A DNA stretch of 21,285 nt from a virus, in the IMG/VR virus record IMGVR_UViG_3300024231_000066, positions 1-21,285 of that record. The stretch is one strand, 5' to 3'. Below the pieces are notes generated by a model, which made no database searches, was not told the DNA's origin, and worked only from the letters and a program-made list of their open reading frames with translations. The position numbers were made by a program, and so were the translations under genes. Below, piece after piece: positions 10,217 to 19,379 of this stretch (the first letter of the stretch is position 1; every line of letters begins with the position of its first letter).

Positions 10217-10224
10217 TATTTATC
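10217..10224 (-). promoter_or_regulatory. Late promoter GATAAATA for the 10195-7388 unit
   Basis: GATAAATACAGTAG on the minus strand. Its first two bases are the GA of the helicase stop codon TGA (10225-10223). Predicted start ~16 nt before the ATG at 10195, leaving CGGAG as ribosome site. Confidence 0.7.
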
Positions 10225-11635
10225 AGTTTTCATCAAAAGGAGAACGTGTTTTGGTCTTCAACATTGCTCTTAAGTCTTTTGCAACATCTGTTTGTTCTTC
10301 GGATTTTTCTTGGGTTTCTGCGACTACTGTAGTCTTTTTTCTTAAATTATCCATGATATTTAACGTAGATGATGTTTGTGTACCATCACCATCGTCAAAA
10401 CCTTCTGAATTATCATCTGTAATCTTCAAACTATCTCTATCAAATAACAGATTAATCTTACTTCCTACACCACTTGATGAACGAGTTTTTAGTAATTGTA
10501 ACTGATATTGTCCACGTTCACGCATTGCTTGACTTGTAAAAATACCAATAACATTGTCCGCAGTCTGAATTTTAGAGATACCACCAGCAATATGCGAATG
10601 GTCAAACTCAATTTCCTCAACTGCACTTCTGTTTAACTGTGATGCAGTTACTACGACATTTTCAGTTTCCATTGCAAAGTTACGAATTTCTTCTGTTACA
10701 TATTTGTCTTTAATAAACAAATCTCCAGCCGAAACTTTTTTAGTTGCTGGCATTAACAAATCAAGATAATCGATACACATGCAATCTACTCGTTTGCCAG
10801 TTTGTATTTGTAATTCTTTAATATAAGAACGCAAGTCGTTAACTGTAGAGCCTGATGGAAGATACTTTACTCTTAACATGCCAGACTTTTTACCTTTAGT
10901 TTTAACTGCTAATTCAACATCATCTAATTCTTTAAAAATTCTTTTTGTACTTCTATCTGTAAGCATTGCATCCATACGCATACTTGATAATTCTTCTGAA
11001 AGTTCAAGTGTAAAGTATACACAGTTTAATCCTGCTTCTGCCCAATTCAAACTCATATTTTGCATGAACAAAGATTTACCTGCACCAGATCCGCCTGCAA
11101 AGATTGTAATCTCGCCACGATTTATTCCGCCATACAATTTATCGTCTAGTACTTTCCAACCAGTCGTAATCTGACCATTGTTATCTTTTAGTTTTTCAAG
11201 TCTTGCTCTAGGATCTTCAAAATAATCTGTACCTAATGAACGTGCTAGTCCAGTTTGTACTGCTTCTTTAATTCTAAGTTCTACTTCACCATACTTACCT
11301 GTTTCAAGCAAATCTGCACTATCAATAATTGCTTTTTCTATTGATTTATGTCTACAGAATGTTTCAAACTCATCGATAAACCAATCTGTGTGTTGACTAA
11401 TATTGTCTACTTTCTCAATGTCTTGTCCTGTTTGTGCTTTAATAATTTCAGGAGTAGGAATAGTTGCATATTCTTCTGAATGGTCAACTAATAAATCAAC
11501 TACTTTTCTTATACTTCTATCAAAATAACCAGGCTTTACAATACTACGGACCCTAGAGTATAACTCTGGATCTGATATCATAAATTGCACAAACAATTTT
11601 TGTAAATCTGAACTATAATCTTTTATATCGGACAT
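10223..11635 (-). CDS. 41: Replicative DNA helicase, DnaB/T4 gp41 type
   Basis: 470 residues, the size of T4 gp41. It unwinds DNA 5'-3' at the fork as a hexamer and works with the primase encoded at 13768-14769. Seen: N-terminal helical domain (1-135); RecA-type ATPase with Walker A GGSGAGKS (181-188), FTLELSEE (208-215, catalytic Glu region), Walker B VDCMCIDYLD with D289, TASQLNRSA (Q333, sensor), and KTRSSSG (383-389) carrying the arginine-finger region. The C-terminal ~65 residues are acidic and Ser/Thr-rich, probably disordered. No Shine-Dalgarno; a near-consensus sigma70 promoter has its -10 box 6 nt before the ATG, so the transcript is predicted leaderless. The stop codon overlaps the next late promoter. 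Confidence 0.93.
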   Translation of the reverse strand: MSDIKDYSSDLQKLFVQFMISDPELYSRVRSIVKPGYFDRSIRKVVDLLVDHSEEYATIPTPEIIKAQTGQDIEKVDNISQHTDWFIDEFETFCRHKSIEKAIIDSADLLETGKYGEVELRIKEAVQTGLARSLGTDYFEDPRARLEKLKDNNGQITTGWKVLDDKLYGGINRGEITIFAGGSGAGKSLFMQNMSLNWAEAGLNCVYFTLELSEELSSMRMDAMLTDRSTKRIFKELDDVELAVKTKGKKSGMLRVKYLPSGSTVNDLRSYIKELQIQTGKRVDCMCIDYLDLLMPATKKVSAGDLFIKDKYVTEEIRNFAMETENVVVTASQLNRSAVEEIEFDHSHIAGGISKIQTADNVIGIFTSQAMRERGQYQLQLLKTRSSSGVGSKINLLFDRDSLKITDDNSEGFDDGDGTQTSSTLNIMDNLRKKTTVVAETQEKSEEQTDVAKDLRAMLKTKTRSPFDEN

Positions 11636-12099: not shown

Positions 12100-13047
12100 C
12101 TAATGTACTTTCGCTTTAAACAGACTACTAACACTTTCTTCATTATTAACTCGTCTGATTGCTTCACCTAACAACCCACAAATTGAAACTGTTCTTGTCT
12201 TTTTACAATCACTAGGACATCTAAATTCAATACTGTCTGTGATAACTAATTCTTCTAGTACACTCTTTTCAACTTTCTTACATGCTTCACCACTTAGAAC
12301 ACCATGTGTAATATATGCTCGTACACTCAGAGCGCCAGCATCTAAAATTGCCTGAGCCGCATTGCAAAGGGTTCCACCACTATCAACAATATCATCTACA
12401 AGAATTGCATGTTGTCCTTTTACTTCACCAATTAAATTCATTACTTCTGCTTTACCGGCTTCTGGTCTACGTTTATCAACGATAGCATAATTGGCATGAT
12501 ACATATCAGCAAACTTTCTTGCTCTTACTGTACCACCAGCATCTGGAGAAACAAATACAATTGGTTCTTCATCTACATTAAGTTGTTTTTTGATATCTCT
12601 TGCAAAAACTAATCTACTTGTTAAATCATCAACGGGTATATCAAAGAAGCCTTGAATTTGTCCAGCATGTAAATCCATTGTTAAGATTCTATCTGCACCT
12701 GATTTAGTAATAAGATTAGCAACAAGTTTTGCAGTAATAGGAGTACGTGATGCACTCTTACGATCCTGTCTTGCATAACCAAAATAAGGAATAACGGCAG
12801 TGATACGTTTGGCTGAACTACGTTTAGCCGCATCAATCATGACCATCATTTCCATTAAATTATCATTTACTGGTGAACTTGTACTTTGTATGATGAAAAC
12901 ATCTTCACCTCTGATGTTATCAAAAAATTCTACACTACATTCTCCATCTGCAAAAGTTTTAATATCAGACGGGACAATATCAGTAAAACAATGTTCAGCA
13001 ATCTTTTCCGCTAAATCTCTGTTACTGTTACCAGCTATAATCTTCAT
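12100..13047 (-). CDS. prs: Ribose-phosphate pyrophosphokinase (PRPP synthetase)
   Basis: Makes PRPP from ribose-5-phosphate and ATP, the precursor for purine, pyrimidine and NAD synthesis. 315 residues from the ATG at 13047, the normal length of class I enzymes; an in-frame GTG at 13056 adds three residues but the family starts MK-I/L-x-AGN, so the ATG is preferred (AAGGTGAGG ahead). Seen: [13 protein letters not shown] at the N-terminus, [15 protein letters not shown], the flexible-loop stretch [18 protein letters not shown], metal site [17 protein letters not shown], and the PRPP-binding loop [10 protein letters not shown]. All key motifs are intact. Likely boosts nucleotide supply during phage replication. 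Driven by a sigma70-type promoter with a symmetric element in its spacer. Confidence 0.95.
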
Positions 13048-13080
13048 AGACCTCACCTTTATGTTACAGTTAATACTGTT

Positions 13081-13119: not shown

Positions 13120-13758
13120 TTAGTAAGTAGTAATTAATTTGTCAGCGATACCGTGCTTGATTGCTTCTTCTGGAGTTAACCAATGGTCTGTTTTAGGTGC
13201 TAACAAGTTCTTACGAATATATGCTTTCGTTTTGCCTGTACATTTAATGTAATGTTCCATTAATTTTTCATTGGTCCAGTCCATATGCTTACGGCTTTCT
13301 ACCATATCATGGTATTGTCCTTTTGTTCCACCTGAGAACTCATGTGACATGACCGCAGTGTTTTGTGTAAGATAACGATGACCTTTTACACCAGACATCA
13401 TCAACATAACTCCACAACTTGCAATAGAACCCATACCGTATGTATAAACTGGAATACGTGACTGTTTGATTGTATCAATTAGATGCATACAACTGTCTAC
13501 AAACCCACCAGGTGAATTGATATACAAGTGAATAGTTTCTGGTGCTTTGTCTTTTGGCATAAGATTGTATTCAATAATCATTTTTACCAAAGGCATACAG
13601 TTGTCTTGATTAAATTCCTTGTCCATGAAAAGAATACCATTATCTTTGCTATACTCGCCTGGTTGCTTGGGTGGTGCCGGCGGCATCGGAGGGGGTGGGG
13701 GAGCAGGCATTTTGGGTTGTTCTTTTGGTAGTGGAATAATTGGTTTATCATTTTTCAT
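13120..13758 (-). CDS. clpP: ClpP-like serine protease
   Basis: 212 residues. The core (about 38-210) aligns with ClpP: IHLYINSPGGFVDSCMHLID (oxyanion/head region), GMGSIASCGVMLMMSG with catalytic S114, VMSHEF with H139, and a TDHWLTPEEAIKHGIAD segment with D191; the triad is complete. Residues 9-33 form a Pro-rich, flexible N-terminal arm not present in typical ClpP, and the usual N-terminal ClpX/ClpA-docking loop is not recognisable. It could work with host Clp ATPases, as a separate peptidase, or in head maturation. It begins 9 nt after the primase stop, with only a weak AGGA site, so it is probably co-expressed with primase. Confidence 0.88.
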   Translation of the reverse strand: MKNDKPIIPLPKEQPKMPAPPPPPMPPAPPKQPGEYSKDNGILFMDKEFNQDNCMPLVKMIIEYNLMPKDKAPETIHLYINSPGGFVDSCMHLIDTIKQSRIPVYTYGMGSIASCGVMLMMSGVKGHRYLTQNTAVMSHEFSGGTKGQYHDMVESRKHMDWTNEKLMEHYIKCTGKTKAYIRKNLLAPKTDHWLTPEEAIKHGIADKLITTY

Positions 13759-13767
13759 GTTTTTATT

Positions 13768-14769
13768 TTATCCTATTCTCATTTTTACACTAATCTTAGT
13801 GTTGTTACTTATACGTGCATCTATAATACTTTTGAGAGTATATAGTTTACCATAACGTTGAATTGCATCTGCGGCATCTTTTATATCATCTTCCCACATA
13901 GGGAAAGATACACTCCAACCATTTTCTTGTGCTTGTTTAATTAATTTCTCTCCAGCTTTATCTCTGTCCGGACAAACAATCACTTCTCCTTTAAACTGAT
14001 TAATATAATCAATTTGATCCTGTGAAGCCTCGTTACTTGTAATCGCAATACAATCTAATGCAATAGCATCTATTATACCTTCGCATACGATTAAGTATTT
14101 ATGACTTGTTTTAATTCTATCTGCATTATGTAGAAACTTTTTTGGTGACTTTGTAATATACTTTGATGCAGATTTACCTGTAATATCACGTGCAGTATAA
14201 CCAACTATCCTATCACCTTGATAGAAAGGAAATATAACTCTGTTTTTAAAATTCATATGAGGGGACCAGTATGCATTATCTATATGGTCAAACACACCTC
14301 TATCTATCAAATACTTTGTTGCAAAGATGGCACCTTCTGGTGGATTATCTTTTGCTAAGATAACTTCTAAATCTTCTGAACCTTCTGGCAACTCACATTC
14401 AGGATAACTAGGTATCCTAGTAACTTGTGTTTTTGAAATGAATAGGGATGGACCTTCAGACAATTCTTTCTGACGGATAGCTTCTAACTGTAAACGCTTT
14501 ATATCACTCTCAGAAATATTAAGATTACGCATGAGTTTCAAAAATTTCTTGTTAAGTATTCTTCCGTGACGATGACTTGCAGTGAATCCACAGTTGAAAC
14601 AGTGGTATGATATGGAATCGCCGTCGCTACGAACACCCCCACGCATTCTAGTATCTAAACGAGGTTCACCCTCGTCAACACAACAAGGACAGTTGAAGCT
14701 AGTCCAACCACCACTAGATTGTTTATTCTTACCAGGTATATGTGTATATATTACTTGTTGAAGGTCCAT
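13768..14769 (-). CDS. 61: DNA primase, zinc finger + TOPRIM (gp61-type)
   Basis: 333 residues. Makes RNA primers for lagging-strand synthesis, working with the gp41-type helicase. Seen: N-terminal zinc site with C27/C30 (NCPCC) and C57/C60 (YHCFNCGF); a middle region with RVIFPFYQGDRIVGYTARDI typical of DnaG/T7-type catalytic cores; TOPRIM motif LIVCEGIIDAIAL with E230 and VCPDRDKAG with D268 and D270. Length matches T4 gp61 (342). A sigma70-type promoter with TATTAT ends 6 nt before the ATG, and no Shine-Dalgarno exists, so leaderless expression is predicted. Followed 9 nt later by the ClpP-like gene. Confidence 0.92.
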   Translation of the reverse strand: MDLQQVIYTHIPGKNKQSSGGWTSFNCPCCVDEGEPRLDTRMRGGVRSDGDSISYHCFNCGFTASHRHGRILNKKFLKLMRNLNISESDIKRLQLEAIRQKELSEGPSLFISKTQVTRIPSYPECELPEGSEDLEVILAKDNPPEGAIFATKYLIDRGVFDHIDNAYWSPHMNFKNRVIFPFYQGDRIVGYTARDITGKSASKYITKSPKKFLHNADRIKTSHKYLIVCEGIIDAIALDCIAITSNEASQDQIDYINQFKGEVIVCPDRDKAGEKLIKQAQENGWSVSFPMWEDDIKDAADAIQRYGKLYTLKSIIDARISNNTKISVKMRIG

Positions 14770-15637: not shown

Positions 15638-16447
15638 ATGGAAAAGGTTCTAATAAACTATAATGGTGCCACAGGTGGAGACTTTCTAAGAAGCTGTTTA
15701 TGGATACTGAAAAATCCAAATCATGAATTGCGTATAGAAGAAAATAAACTAATACTAAATGATATATGGTTATTTTGGATTAAACCAAACGGCCAAGTTT
15801 TTCCTAATCCTGATATATCAATTTTAATGGACCTCATGAGGTGGAAAAATTTACATCATAACAGAAGAAATGGACTTCTAATGTACAGTCAATGGCAGTA
15901 TAATATAGAGTATGAGTATAAGTTACAAAAGAAAATGAAAATATTTGATAGTACTATATTAAATTCAAACGTAGATATACAAATAACTCATGACCCTTTT
16001 GAAGTAAAATATAACGATATGCACCGAGTAAAAGAAATTATTCAAGAACGAGATAATATATTAAAAAATCTATATGACCATACGTGGGATAAAATTTACT
16101 GGATATTTAATACCACTAATGAAGATATGGCATGGAGTATGTATTTTAATAGTACGAAAAATCCAAAATACAGAGAAAGCAAGATAAAACAAGAACTAAT
16201 TTTTAGAAAAAAGAGTTATGAAGAATTAGTAAAATTCCTAAAGATAAGTAATAGTAGTATCATATCACATAATGATATAATTAATAACAAAGTACATGAT
16301 TTTTTTAACTTAGAACCAACTCCAATATACATAGAATGGTGCAAGATATATAGAAAATTAAATAAATTAGATAAACCACCAGAGAGATATTTTGAACTCC
16401 TGGGAATGACAGAAAAGATATTGACTAAATACAACGATGGACACTGA
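15638..16447 (+). CDS. P-loop/sulfotransferase-like protein, unknown specificity
   Basis: 269 residues from ATG 15638; the frame is open further upstream, but that part lies antisense to the baseplate-like gene and is ignored. N-terminus VLINYNGATGGDFLRSCLWI has a Gly-rich turn resembling the 5'-PSB loop of sulfotransferase-like P-loop proteins. It is followed by QITHDPFEVKY and by KIYWIFNTTNEDMAWSMYF, a spacing and character that recall the His-Pro and R-x-P-x-x-x-x-x-S blocks of sulfotransferases, though the canonical Lys and Arg are absent. The product of 20374-21156 shares Y-x-G and THxxF landmarks. Lys/Asn/Ile-rich and AT-biased. The last 11 nt overlap the next gene. Function not established. 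Confidence 0.6.
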   Translation: MEKVLINYNGATGGDFLRSCLWILKNPNHELRIEENKLILNDIWLFWIKPNGQVFPNPDISILMDLMRWKNLHHNRRNGLLMYSQWQYNIEYEYKLQKKMKIFDSTILNSNVDIQITHDPFEVKYNDMHRVKEIIQERDNILKNLYDHTWDKIYWIFNTTNEDMAWSMYFNSTKNPKYRESKIKQELIFRKKSYEELVKFLKISNSSIISHNDIINNKVHDFFNLEPTPIYIEWCKIYRKLNKLDKPPERYFELLGMTEKILTKYNDGH

Positions 16448-16826
16448 AAAGCAACAATGGATGCAAGAGAATTATCCGTTCTTCTCATACGTGAGATACG
16501 GAAATAAAAAAGAATTTACAGAGCATCTAGGCATTATAATAAACTCTGACCAAGTAATAACTTCAATGTATAATTTTGAAGCAATACCAACTCCAGAACT
16601 AAGAAAGAAATTTATCGAACTTGGTGAACAATGGTGGTGGGAATCAAATAGACTCATGCCTATAAATTTATTTCTTGGAAATCAAATAAGCCAGTATAAA
16701 AATTGGATTTTAAATATGAATTCTAAGGACACTGAGGTTCTTTGGGGTCCTGCGACTAGTCTATCAAATATTATTCAAAAACGTATCAAGAGGCGTTCTG
16801 TTCAACTTGTTCGCAAAATAGATTAA
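16437..16826 (+). CDS. Conserved phage protein, unknown function
   Basis: 129 residues. Conserved-looking block KKFIELGEQWWWESNRLMPI and a basic C-terminus with KRIKRRSVQLVRK; I recall similar proteins in marine T4-like phages without assigned function. Start overlaps the preceding gene by 11 nt in another frame, so the pair is likely co-translated. Its last 41 nt overlap, tail to tail, the end of the mini-DnaE gene on the other strand. Confidence 0.6.
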   Translation: MDTEKQQWMQENYPFFSYVRYGNKKEFTEHLGIIINSDQVITSMYNFEAIPTPELRKKFIELGEQWWWESNRLMPINLFLGNQISQYKNWILNMNSKDTEVLWGPATSLSNIIQKRIKRRSVQLVRKID

Positions 16827-17391
16827 GCTGAACTACGATACTGACTGAATATGCAAACGCATGTGCTTTCTTAAAAAAATAACTATCATCTTCTGGTTTC
16901 TTCCATACTTCATTACTGATAGTTTCTTTACTTTCATTAAGTAAATGCCTTTTAGCAGGACGAATGACTGCTAGTACTTCTGCTAATTCTTCAATACTTT
17001 GAGGCTTCATTACTTTTAAAACATCTAAATGATTATGAACATGTGCAAGATTTTTAACTACATCCGCATGTTGTAATAAATCCCAAATAGGTTCTTTTGC
17101 AATAAGTTTATCTAAATGTGCTTCATCTTGTATGCCTTCATACAAACTGTTGTTAAGAAAATCTAACTTGAAGTATCCACGTTCCTCTGCTTCTTTATAT
17201 TCTATACTTGAAAGTCCACTAACTGGATCAAAGGGTATAGGTTGAAGATACACGCCACTATTATGTTTTGTATATTCATTCTTCTTTTTTATACTTGCTG
17301 TTATGTGTCGAAAATGTGTTAGCACACTATCTCTATCGATAACATCAATATCTATATCAGTTTGTACTTTCATTTTTTTATTATACATCAT
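16786..17391 (-). CDS. Miniature DnaE (DNA polymerase III alpha)-like protein
   Basis: 201 residues from ATG 17391 (overlaps the upstream stop as ATGA; a TTG at 17397 is less likely). Conserved blocks of bacterial DnaE appear in the right order: DIDIDVIDRDSV (D14, D16; DnaE DFDVDF, D401/D403), KHNSGVYLQP (DnaE KHAGGVVIAP), RGYFKLDFLN (K75, D77; DnaE LVKFDFLGL, K553/D555), IWDLLQ, LKVMKPQSIEELAEVLAVIRP (DnaE LKRLQP...VALFRPGP region) and FKKAHAFAYSVSIVVQLNL (173-191; DnaE FNKSHSAAYALVSYQTLWL). So the three catalytic Asp are kept, but ~90 residues between D16 and D77 are missing, as are PHP, most of the fingers, YQEQ and the C-terminal domains. Full polymerase activity is doubtful. The match is from remembered E. 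coli sequence, not a search. Confidence 0.72.
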   Translation of the reverse strand: MMYNKKMKVQTDIDIDVIDRDSVLTHFRHITASIKKKNEYTKHNSGVYLQPIPFDPVSGLSSIEYKEAEERGYFKLDFLNNSLYEGIQDEAHLDKLIAKEPIWDLLQHADVVKNLAHVHNHLDVLKVMKPQSIEELAEVLAVIRPAKRHLLNESKETISNEVWKKPEDDSYFFKKAHAFAYSVSIVVQLNLFCEQVEQNAS

Positions 17392-17693
17392 TTCCAATAC
17401 ATTGTAAAGTATGCGGCATCATTATCATTCTTAAAATAAAACTTACCTTGATATGCAACATAATGGTCTTGTAAATGACTATTACACCAATCTACCAACT
17501 GTGTTATATGTCCAGCACCCTCTATCATAACTTTTTCGTAGTTGATATTTTCATGAGAAACACATGTCCAGTCTAAGAATTCTTTGTTTTCAAAGTCACT
17601 ATGAAATCGCCTAAGATGTTCAATCTTACCACTTAACTTTCTAAGTCTTTCTAATCTTTCTTTGACATTTGAATGCCTTAACATGTCAGCCAT
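17388..17693 (-). CDS. Early small protein upstream of mini-DnaE, unknown function
   Basis: 101 residues: a basic amphipathic helical start (NVKERLERLRKLSGKIEHLR), then a small folded part ending in the aromatic YVAYQGKFYFKNDNDAAYFT. No recognised family. AGGTG ribosome site and near-perfect sigma70 promoter (TTGACA/TATAAT). Its stop overlaps the start of mini-DnaE, so both proteins are made together and may form a complex. Confidence 0.6.
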   Translation of the reverse strand: MADMLRHSNVKERLERLRKLSGKIEHLRRFHSDFENKEFLDWTCVSHENINYEKVMIEGAGHITQLVDWCNSHLQDHYVAYQGKFYFKNDNDAAYFTMYWK

Positions 17694-17713: not shown

Positions 17714-17743
17714 ATTATATACTAAAAAGTGTATGAATGTCAA
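17714..17743 (-). promoter_or_regulatory. Sigma70-type early promoter for the small protein/mini-DnaE unit
   Basis: TTGACA (17743-17738), 18 bp, TATAAT (17719-17714) on the minus strand: both hexamers are exact consensus. It lies between the desaturase stop (17747) and the ATG at 17693, with a leader of ~14 nt. Confidence 0.8.
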
Positions 17744-17746
17744 TAG

Positions 17747-18388
17747 TTAATTTTTGTGTTTATAACTATGATGGTCGCCATGATCCCACGCCCATGGCAT
17801 AAAAGGTAATAAAAACCAAGCATTATATGGTTTACCTTCAAGATGTCCTAATGTATTTTGCATAGACCCTGAGTGAAATGTATAGATTACGAAAGGAGAA
17901 AGCACAAAACATAATGCTTTAAATTCTATTAACGCCACAATTAATATCAATAATATTTGCAGATAAAACCAATTTTTATGCATCCGCTTTTGAAATTTGC
18001 TACGCACATAGTCTGCAATTAATCTAGGGTGTATACTCTGAGATTTCCAATCTAAAAAGTACACTCTTAGCCAGCCTATGTGTTTAGGTGAATGTGGGTC
18101 TCTTTCTGTGTCTGTGTGTCTGTGATGTTGTCTATGAGAAGCCGCAAAACTAATTGGAGAACCAAGACCTGTTGCCAAAGTCAGAAATGTATATAAGTAT
18201 CCTTTTACTGAGTCCTCATATTTGCCATGTCCAAAGTAATAGTGCATAATATCGCTACCTACAAATTTAGTCCATGCCATACTCGCAAAGAAAATAGCGA
18301 TAGCCCAACCAATATTAAAACCATATAAGTAAATACCAATCGCTAAAACTACATGATGAAACAGTACTATTGCTTGTCCTTTATTCAT
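17747..18388 (-). CDS. Fatty acid desaturase, delta-9-like
   Basis: 213 residues, integral membrane diiron enzyme expected to introduce a double bond into acyl lipids. All three histidine boxes are present: H49-YYFG-H54, H85-RQ-HH89 (with H91), and H203-GD-HH207, plus HLEGKPYN (182-189), which matches the H-x-x-G-x-x-PYD block of delta-9 desaturases. Hydrophobic segments lie at about 8-40, 63-83, 142-170 and 190-200. It is shorter than typical bacterial enzymes (~300), lacking N- and C-terminal extensions. GGAG ribosome site 6 nt before the ATG. A TTGACT at 18423-18418 has only a weak -10 partner, so its promoter is unclear. It shares the upstream region with the divergent radical SAM gene. 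Probably adjusts host membrane lipids. Confidence 0.88.
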   Translation of the reverse strand: MNKGQAIVLFHHVVLAIGIYLYGFNIGWAIAIFFASMAWTKFVGSDIMHYYFGHGKYEDSVKGYLYTFLTLATGLGSPISFAASHRQHHRHTDTERDPHSPKHIGWLRVYFLDWKSQSIHPRLIADYVRSKFQKRMHKNWFYLQILLILIVALIEFKALCFVLSPFVIYTFHSGSMQNTLGHLEGKPYNAWFLLPFMPWAWDHGDHHSYKHKN

Positions 18389-18440: not shown

Positions 18441-19379
18441 ATGGCTCAGGAATTATTCCAATATAAAATAACAGAACCAGAAGACAATACATTTGCAGAT
18501 ATTTTTGCAGACATTACGCATCAATGTAATATGACCTGCAAGAACTGTTACATTCCTGGACGTGATATTCCTGATATGGATTTGGATAAGTTTAAAGACT
18601 TTATGAGTAAATTAGGTGGTAGAGCATTTATACGTATTATCGGTGCAGAACCAACTGTTGCACCCCAATGTGCAGAATTTATTCGTGCAGTATATGAGCA
18701 TGGTAGAACTAATGGAAGAAAGCATAGTTGTACATTAGTAACAAATGGCCTAAGATTATCTCATAAAAAATATTTAGATAAGCTATTTGAAGCAGGATTG
18801 AGAAGTGTCACACTAAGCCTTAATGGAGTAGATAATGACGATTGGTATGAACAAATTGATGAAATGCGTTGTGCTACTAAAAAACTAAAAGCACTACGTA
18901 ACGTAGTCGATAGAAAAATGAACTTAAACACAGGTACAATTATCGTTCCAGAAATTAATTATGAGGCTCCTGCAAGATTAAATGAACTTATTGAACGTGA
19001 AAAAATTAGAAACATAATGATGCGAATTAAAAACGTTGGACAGATTGGAAGATATCAAAAAGACGCAGATGGCAACATTAAATTAGATGGGCTAGTCAAA
19101 CTATGTGCAGACCAATTTAATGTCTCAGAGGACTATATTTGGAGCTTTCACGGTGTACCTTACTATAATAAATTCATCGAAAAGAATAGCATCTTATTCC
19201 CATTAAGAGAGGGTAATAAACTATTAAATAGAGGTCGATGGGTAAAAATAACAAATTGGGATACAGACAATGAAGGTGGTATACCGGATCCCGGAAGTAT
19301 AAGAAGAGGTCGTATCACACAGAATTTCAAACTAGCACCATTCTATGAACACGTAAAAGAAAACGAAGGCGGGTATTAG
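18441..19379 (+). CDS. Radical SAM enzyme
   Basis: 312 residues. The 4Fe-4S site CNMTCKNC (C29, C33, C36; CX3CX2C), the GAEPT segment (69-72, variant of the GGEP SAM-binding motif), TLVTNG (98-103) and LSLNG (126-129) give the complete partial TIM-barrel core typical of MoaA/SPASM-like radical SAM proteins. The C-terminus lacks the Cys cluster of SPASM auxiliary iron-sulfur domains, so it is a single-cluster enzyme. MRIKNVGQIGRY (194-205) is a conserved-looking basic loop. Substrate unknown; peptide, nucleoside or cofactor modification are all possible. It is directly followed (TAGATG) by the gene at 19380, a strong sign of joint function. Confidence 0.87.
   Translation: MAQELFQYKITEPEDNTFADIFADITHQCNMTCKNCYIPGRDIPDMDLDKFKDFMSKLGGRAFIRIIGAEPTVAPQCAEFIRAVYEHGRTNGRKHSCTLVTNGLRLSHKKYLDKLFEAGLRSVTLSLNGVDNDDWYEQIDEMRCATKKLKALRNVVDRKMNLNTGTIIVPEINYEAPARLNELIEREKIRNIMMRIKNVGQIGRYQKDADGNIKLDGLVKLCADQFNVSEDYIWSFHGVPYYNKFIEKNSILFPLREGNKLLNRGRWVKITNWDTDNEGGIPDPGSIRRGRITQNFKLAPFYEHVKENEGGY

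Follow-up and report, generated by a model that had tools for sequence, protein, structure and literature searches.

A phage gene for the probable C-terminal half of a split minimal DNA polymerase III alpha core

A split, minimal form of the alpha subunit of DNA polymerase III (Pol III) was reported from sequence in 2021 for jumbo phages of group 2.2 by Iyer et al. (PMC7824862). Earlier, in 2017, the authors of the CBB genome had described a truncated alpha subunit (CBB_328, which corresponds to the N-terminal half, here called the N-unit; PMC5259590), and in a survey of marine jumbo phages PF07733 was found in 51.9% of the PGC_A group (PMC9123017); this protein is probably the N-unit as well. 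In the PHROG collection the pair is represented by families 11778 (C-terminal half, here called the C-unit) and 11127 (N-unit), exemplified by CBB gp287 and gp328. Two other groups of proteins are related. The full-length DnaE of phages (phrog_405; e.g., Bacillus phage G, group 3.2) has the C-family catalytic core in common with the split pair, but is a host-like protein of a single chain with a PHP domain and functions as main replicase. The bacterial alpha subunits (DnaE, DnaE2, PolC) resemble the pair in the palm Asp triad, K553, the RP block and the region of H760, and also in the GRGS loop, which in the split form resides on the partner. No experimental study of the split pair was found in the literature searched.

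The window, i.e., the whole stretch of 21,285 nucleotides which was analysed (positions 1 to 21,285 of IMG/VR record IMGVR_UViG_3300024231_000066), contains a gene for a C-unit. A first-pass annotation had considered this protein to be a miniature DnaE-like polypeptide with no described function; the claim of novelty was wrong, since Iyer et al. (PMC7824862) describe it as one of two halves into which a minimal Pol III alpha is split. With their proteins it shares the family, the size, the split, the distant location of the two genes and the co-existence with a family B polymerase, and a stand-alone C-unit of about 200 amino acids with a Mg-binding Asp triad and finger/template elements was found here too. 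Differences from the phages of Iyer et al. are that the virus is uncultured, that its near relative has a size of 342 kb, and that the N-unit is expected outside the 21-kb fragment, within which none is present. The features of the window which are of relevance are as follows.

10223-11635, minus strand: DnaB-like replicative helicase (T4 gp41-like)
13768-14769, minus strand: DNA primase (T4 gp61-like), a downstream replication gene in conserved order
16437-16826, plus strand: convergent gene of 129 amino acids (phrog_11637), overlapping the tail of the C-unit gene by 41 nt
16786-17391, minus strand: putative C-unit of a split minimal DNA polymerase III alpha (phrog_11778), with palm Asp triad, K-x-D strand, and RP and FKKxHA finger helices
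16861-16863, minus strand: H177 (equivalent to DnaE H760, putative steric gate)
17161-17169, minus strand: K75-x-D77 (equivalent to DnaE K553 and D555)
17344-17358, minus strand: catalytic DIDID motif, residues 12-16 (D14 and D16 equivalent to E. coli DnaE D401 and D403)
17388-17693, minus strand: gene of 101 amino acids upstream of the C-unit, with ATGA overlap; conserved in position in the 342-kb relative; weak match to phrog_25204
17714-17743, minus strand: promoter-like site with perfect sigma-70 consensus, upstream of the 101-amino-acid gene and the C-unit; a consensus match only

The open reading frame extends on the minus strand from 17391 to 16786 and encodes 201 amino acids when counted from the first ATG (17391), which overlaps the stop codon of the upstream gene as ATGA; the start codon shared with homologs is the ATG at 17373, corresponding to a C-unit of 195 amino acids. 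The landmarks TDIDIDV (D12/D14/D16), K75-L-D77, I143-R144-P145 and FFKKAHAFAY (172-181) follow each other in the order of DnaE, as had been recognised from the sequence in the first-pass annotation. Each of 66 diverse viral homologs has residues D12, D14, D16, R20, K75, D77, R144, P145, K147 and H177 unchanged (100%), and Y181 is kept in 97% of them; because of this conservation the landmarks cannot be attributed to chance. The equivalents in E. coli DnaE are D401 (D14), D403 (D16), K553 (K75), D555 (D77), R639-P640 (R144-P145) and H760 (H177). Of these, D401, D403 and D555 are active-site residues of DnaE and H760 is its putative sugar steric gate (PMC8485763); all three catalytic carboxylates are retained in the C-unit.

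Identity to DnaE is about 20%, and searches of PDB sequences with the C-unit by phmmer and by single-family hmmsearch gave no match; profile-profile and fold comparisons were needed. With hhalign, the profile of 66 C-unit sequences aligned to a DnaE profile at E. coli residues 510-641 with an E-value of 8e-7 and a score of 57.8, compared to a maximum score of 27.1 with 40 column-shuffled controls. Pfam DNA_pol3_finger was matched weakly by 40 of the 66 C-units; for the window protein alone, the sole Pfam match was to RHD3, which was below the threshold and is considered spurious. An AlphaFold2 model of the C-unit (pLDDT 89) contained predicted strands at residues 13-17 and 76-80, around D14/D16 and D77. 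When this model was compared with the PDB by Foldseek, the best 15 matches were all to Pol III alpha or PolC, with a probability of 1.0 for the top eight, and no other family turned up among them. Whole-chain TM-scores were modest (0.34-0.45), which is to be expected when only parts of the DnaE core are kept. For the parts retained, the C-unit is a relative of DnaE, as judged from profile and predicted fold, and the kinship proposed in the first-pass annotation was thus upheld.

In PHROG, the C-unit belongs to phrog_11778 ("DNA polymerase"; E 2.1e-72), and the match to the full-length phage DnaE family phrog_405 was weak (E 2.6e-4). Homologs were detected in 90 named phage records, which include RaK2, CBB, GAP32, PBECO4/121Q, PA5oct/MIJ3, Atu_ph07, Phosso, SCTP-2, XacN1 and relatives, and in at least several hundred IMG/VR contigs. 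Carriers of the pair comprise at least several hundred viral contigs and many isolated jumbo phages, among them phages of laboratory E. coli and Pseudomonas. In public records (PA5oct, MIJ3, RaK2, CBB and others) the C-unit is often labelled "hypothetical protein", "putative membrane protein" or plainly "DNA polymerase". Internal stops were flagged in some homologs; where inspected, they were confined to the ends of the matches, which rules out recoding or introns in those cases. A search of cellular genomes yielded 11 matches, every one on contigs of metagenome-assembled genomes (MAGs), and they are most simply read as binned phage contigs. Two contigs of one Neomarinimicrobiota MAG (L251, 335 kb, and L261, 153 kb) both carry a C-unit, with identical match scores, and probably stem from a jumbo phage which was binned together with the bacterium.

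The core of DnaE requires a GRGS nucleotide-binding loop, which is situated N-terminal to the DxD strand. This loop is absent from the chain of the C-unit and is located on the separate N-unit, which speaks against the small stand-alone nucleotidyltransferase that had been suggested in the first-pass annotation. When whole genomes were searched with the DnaE profile, the N-unit came to light as another small gene in each of the nine large genomes tested. It belongs to phrog_11127 ("DNA polymerase"), has a length of about 170 amino acids and ends in a GRGSS...EFLK region; the GRGS loop is 100% invariant across the N-units of divergent phages. Pfam DNA_pol3_alpha was found in 50 of 50 N-units, and hhalign matched the N-unit to DnaE residues 315-392 (E 4e-8); fold matches of the N-unit were individually weak (best E 0.067). 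The two halves are exactly complementary: the N-unit ends at the DnaE position ...RFLN (393), and the motif of the C-unit starts at DFDVD (401) of DnaE. In 13 of 13 genomes compared, N-units end with ...(Y/F)xLDxxEFLK and C-units begin with (M)..DIDID. Concatenation of paired halves in silico produced one continuous hhalign alignment to DnaE 206-791 (E 1.5e-16, score 136). The passages of PMC7824862 drawn on here contain neither the exact split point nor the losses of R390 and R709 described below.

Both units were present in 14 of 15 records of at least 280 kb, these records having been picked for carrying one unit. The genes were never less than 10 kb apart in 124 loci with a C-unit and 99 loci with an N-unit, and among these loci, which were searched for a fused or adjacent gene, none contained both. 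The identity matrices of N- and C-units are correlated (r 0.80, Mantel p 0.0002), which could be explained by shared ancestry alone. Among sizeable relatives of the window virus, G005 (342 kb) is the nearest; its C-unit is 83% identical and is embedded in the same gene order as in the window. This relative carries both units at a distance of 84 kb, and its N-unit adjoins a GroES gene. A family B polymerase was found in all of the 17 large records tested (nine plus eight, including the 342-kb relative); in the window virus it would be situated outside the fragment. The co-existence with such an enzyme, which the first-pass annotation had anticipated for a T4-like phage, is therefore borne out.

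The C-unit is probably the C-terminal half, responsible for the binding of Mg and template, of a minimal Pol III alpha core made of two proteins; the halves would assemble for auxiliary nucleotidyl transfer in the service of a T4-like replisome. From the C-unit would come the Asp triad of the palm (D14, D16, D77) and K75, together with the first finger helix and the last, the sugar-gate His (H177) included. The palm helix and the loop GRGSS, which binds the nucleotide, would come from the N-unit of about 170 amino acids. The chains should meet in the palm sheet at the place where the continuous chain of DnaE would run (DnaE 393/400). Such a complex might bind (d)NTP by the loop of the N-unit and metal by the Asp triad of the C-unit, as well as primer-template, on which nucleotidyl transfer would be performed. 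It would work beside the family B replicase, clamp loader, primase and helicase of the phage, presumably in lagging-strand, gap or repair synthesis and not as the main replicase.

Several features of DnaE are missing in the pair. The two-chain form lacks about 100 residues of the fingers, and the alignment leaves no residues for the PHP, thumb, clamp-binding, OB and tau-binding regions (201 versus 1160 amino acids); the region for attachment of epsilon is likewise missing from the C-unit. In the absence of the thumb and of the attachment regions for clamp, tau and epsilon, the pair is unlikely to replicate DNA processively, and its activity is more probably auxiliary or altered. R390, which is invariant in eight DnaE sequences, is replaced by Glu in 98% of N-units; R709, also invariant in the eight sequences, falls into the stretch of the fingers which is absent from the C-unit and has no counterpart. 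Both losses are additions of the present analysis. In ternary complexes of C-family polymerases, R390 and R709 contact the incoming triphosphate. It follows that the handling of dNTP phosphates must differ, or that activity may be lost; normal polymerase activity of the split pair would not be assured.

The losses of R390 (to Glu), R709 and the thumb, together with the constant presence of a full family B polymerase, could also indicate a catalytically inert or regulatory remnant, whose halves, though still able to come together and to bind nucleotides or the ends of DNA, would no longer polymerise and would form a subunit of the phage replisome with a structural or sensing function. This appears unlikely, since no exchange occurs among divergent phages at the three catalytic Asp, at K75 and H177 or in the GRGS loop (100% invariance), which would be unusual for an inert remnant. 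A specialised nucleotidyltransferase on a Pol III palm, with, e.g., the ends of RNA or DNA or a protein as substrate and no copying of a template, would be compatible with the minimal size, and the changed triphosphate contacts and missing thumb would fit an altered use of substrates; the conserved finger elements and sugar-gate His, as well as the position of the gene with primase and helicase, make it rather improbable. With respect to the split polymerase core preferred here, the halves may represent a C-family enzyme in which triphosphates are handled differently (Glu for R390, loss of R709 and of the thumb) and which is now dedicated to auxiliary nucleotidyl transfer (e.g., primer handoff, gap filling or end processing) in a T4-like replisome which is driven by a family B polymerase. 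This would be a replisome mixed from families B and C, of a kind not characterised by experiment, and we regard it as possible rather than probable. If the pair is active, no smaller core of a C-family polymerase is known to us, and it would be one that naturally consists of two chains; the occurrence of C-family and B-family enzymes within one replisome would have a bearing on the evolution of the bacterial replicase.

The surroundings of the gene form a replication cluster. Downstream of the C-unit, the window contains the convergent 129-amino-acid gene, a structural-type gene, primase, a ClpP-like protease, Prs and the DnaB-type helicase. The order C-unit, convergent small gene, structural-type gene, primase and helicase is repeated in CBB, RaK2, PBECO4, Phosso, SCTP-2 and PAC2, and in most named jumbo phages examined a small convergent gene overlaps the C-unit at the same place. 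Atu_ph07 possesses a variant of this order without an annotated primase, and in XacN1 primase and helicase are absent from the neighbourhood. In Phosso and PAC2, a GroES-like gene and a clamp-loader-type ATPase follow downstream of the N-unit at a distance of one or a few genes; in CBB the N-unit has its place upstream of the clamp loader.

The site at 17743-17714 (TTGACA-18-TATAAT) agrees with the sigma-70 consensus in 12 of 12 positions. The designation as an early gene in the first-pass annotation finds circumstantial support in this site just upstream of the two-gene unit. Possible early expression from the sigma-70-like promoter and the homology to DnaE might also be brought forward for the main idea of the first-pass annotation, a decoy of host origin or an inhibitor which would act on the host Pol III holoenzyme by binding to clamp or tau. 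This reading is rejected as extremely improbable: PHP, clamp-, tau- and epsilon-binding and OB regions are absent and the remainder is catalytic core; identity to DnaE is low, and the family is ancient, deeply conserved in phages of many hosts beside primase and helicase, and paired with an N-unit.

Prs (ribose-phosphate pyrophosphokinase; 12100-13056, minus strand) and the ClpP-like protease with a proline-rich N-terminus (13120-13758, minus strand) lie between primase and helicase, an order which is kept in the 342-kb relative. At 17747-18388 (minus strand) a desaturase-like membrane protein is encoded, as judged from histidine boxes read by eye; the PHROG match was weak, and the gene has the same position in the 342-kb relative. 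A radical SAM protein is encoded at 18441-19379 (plus strand) beside an unassigned gene of 342 amino acids, and both are kept in that relative.
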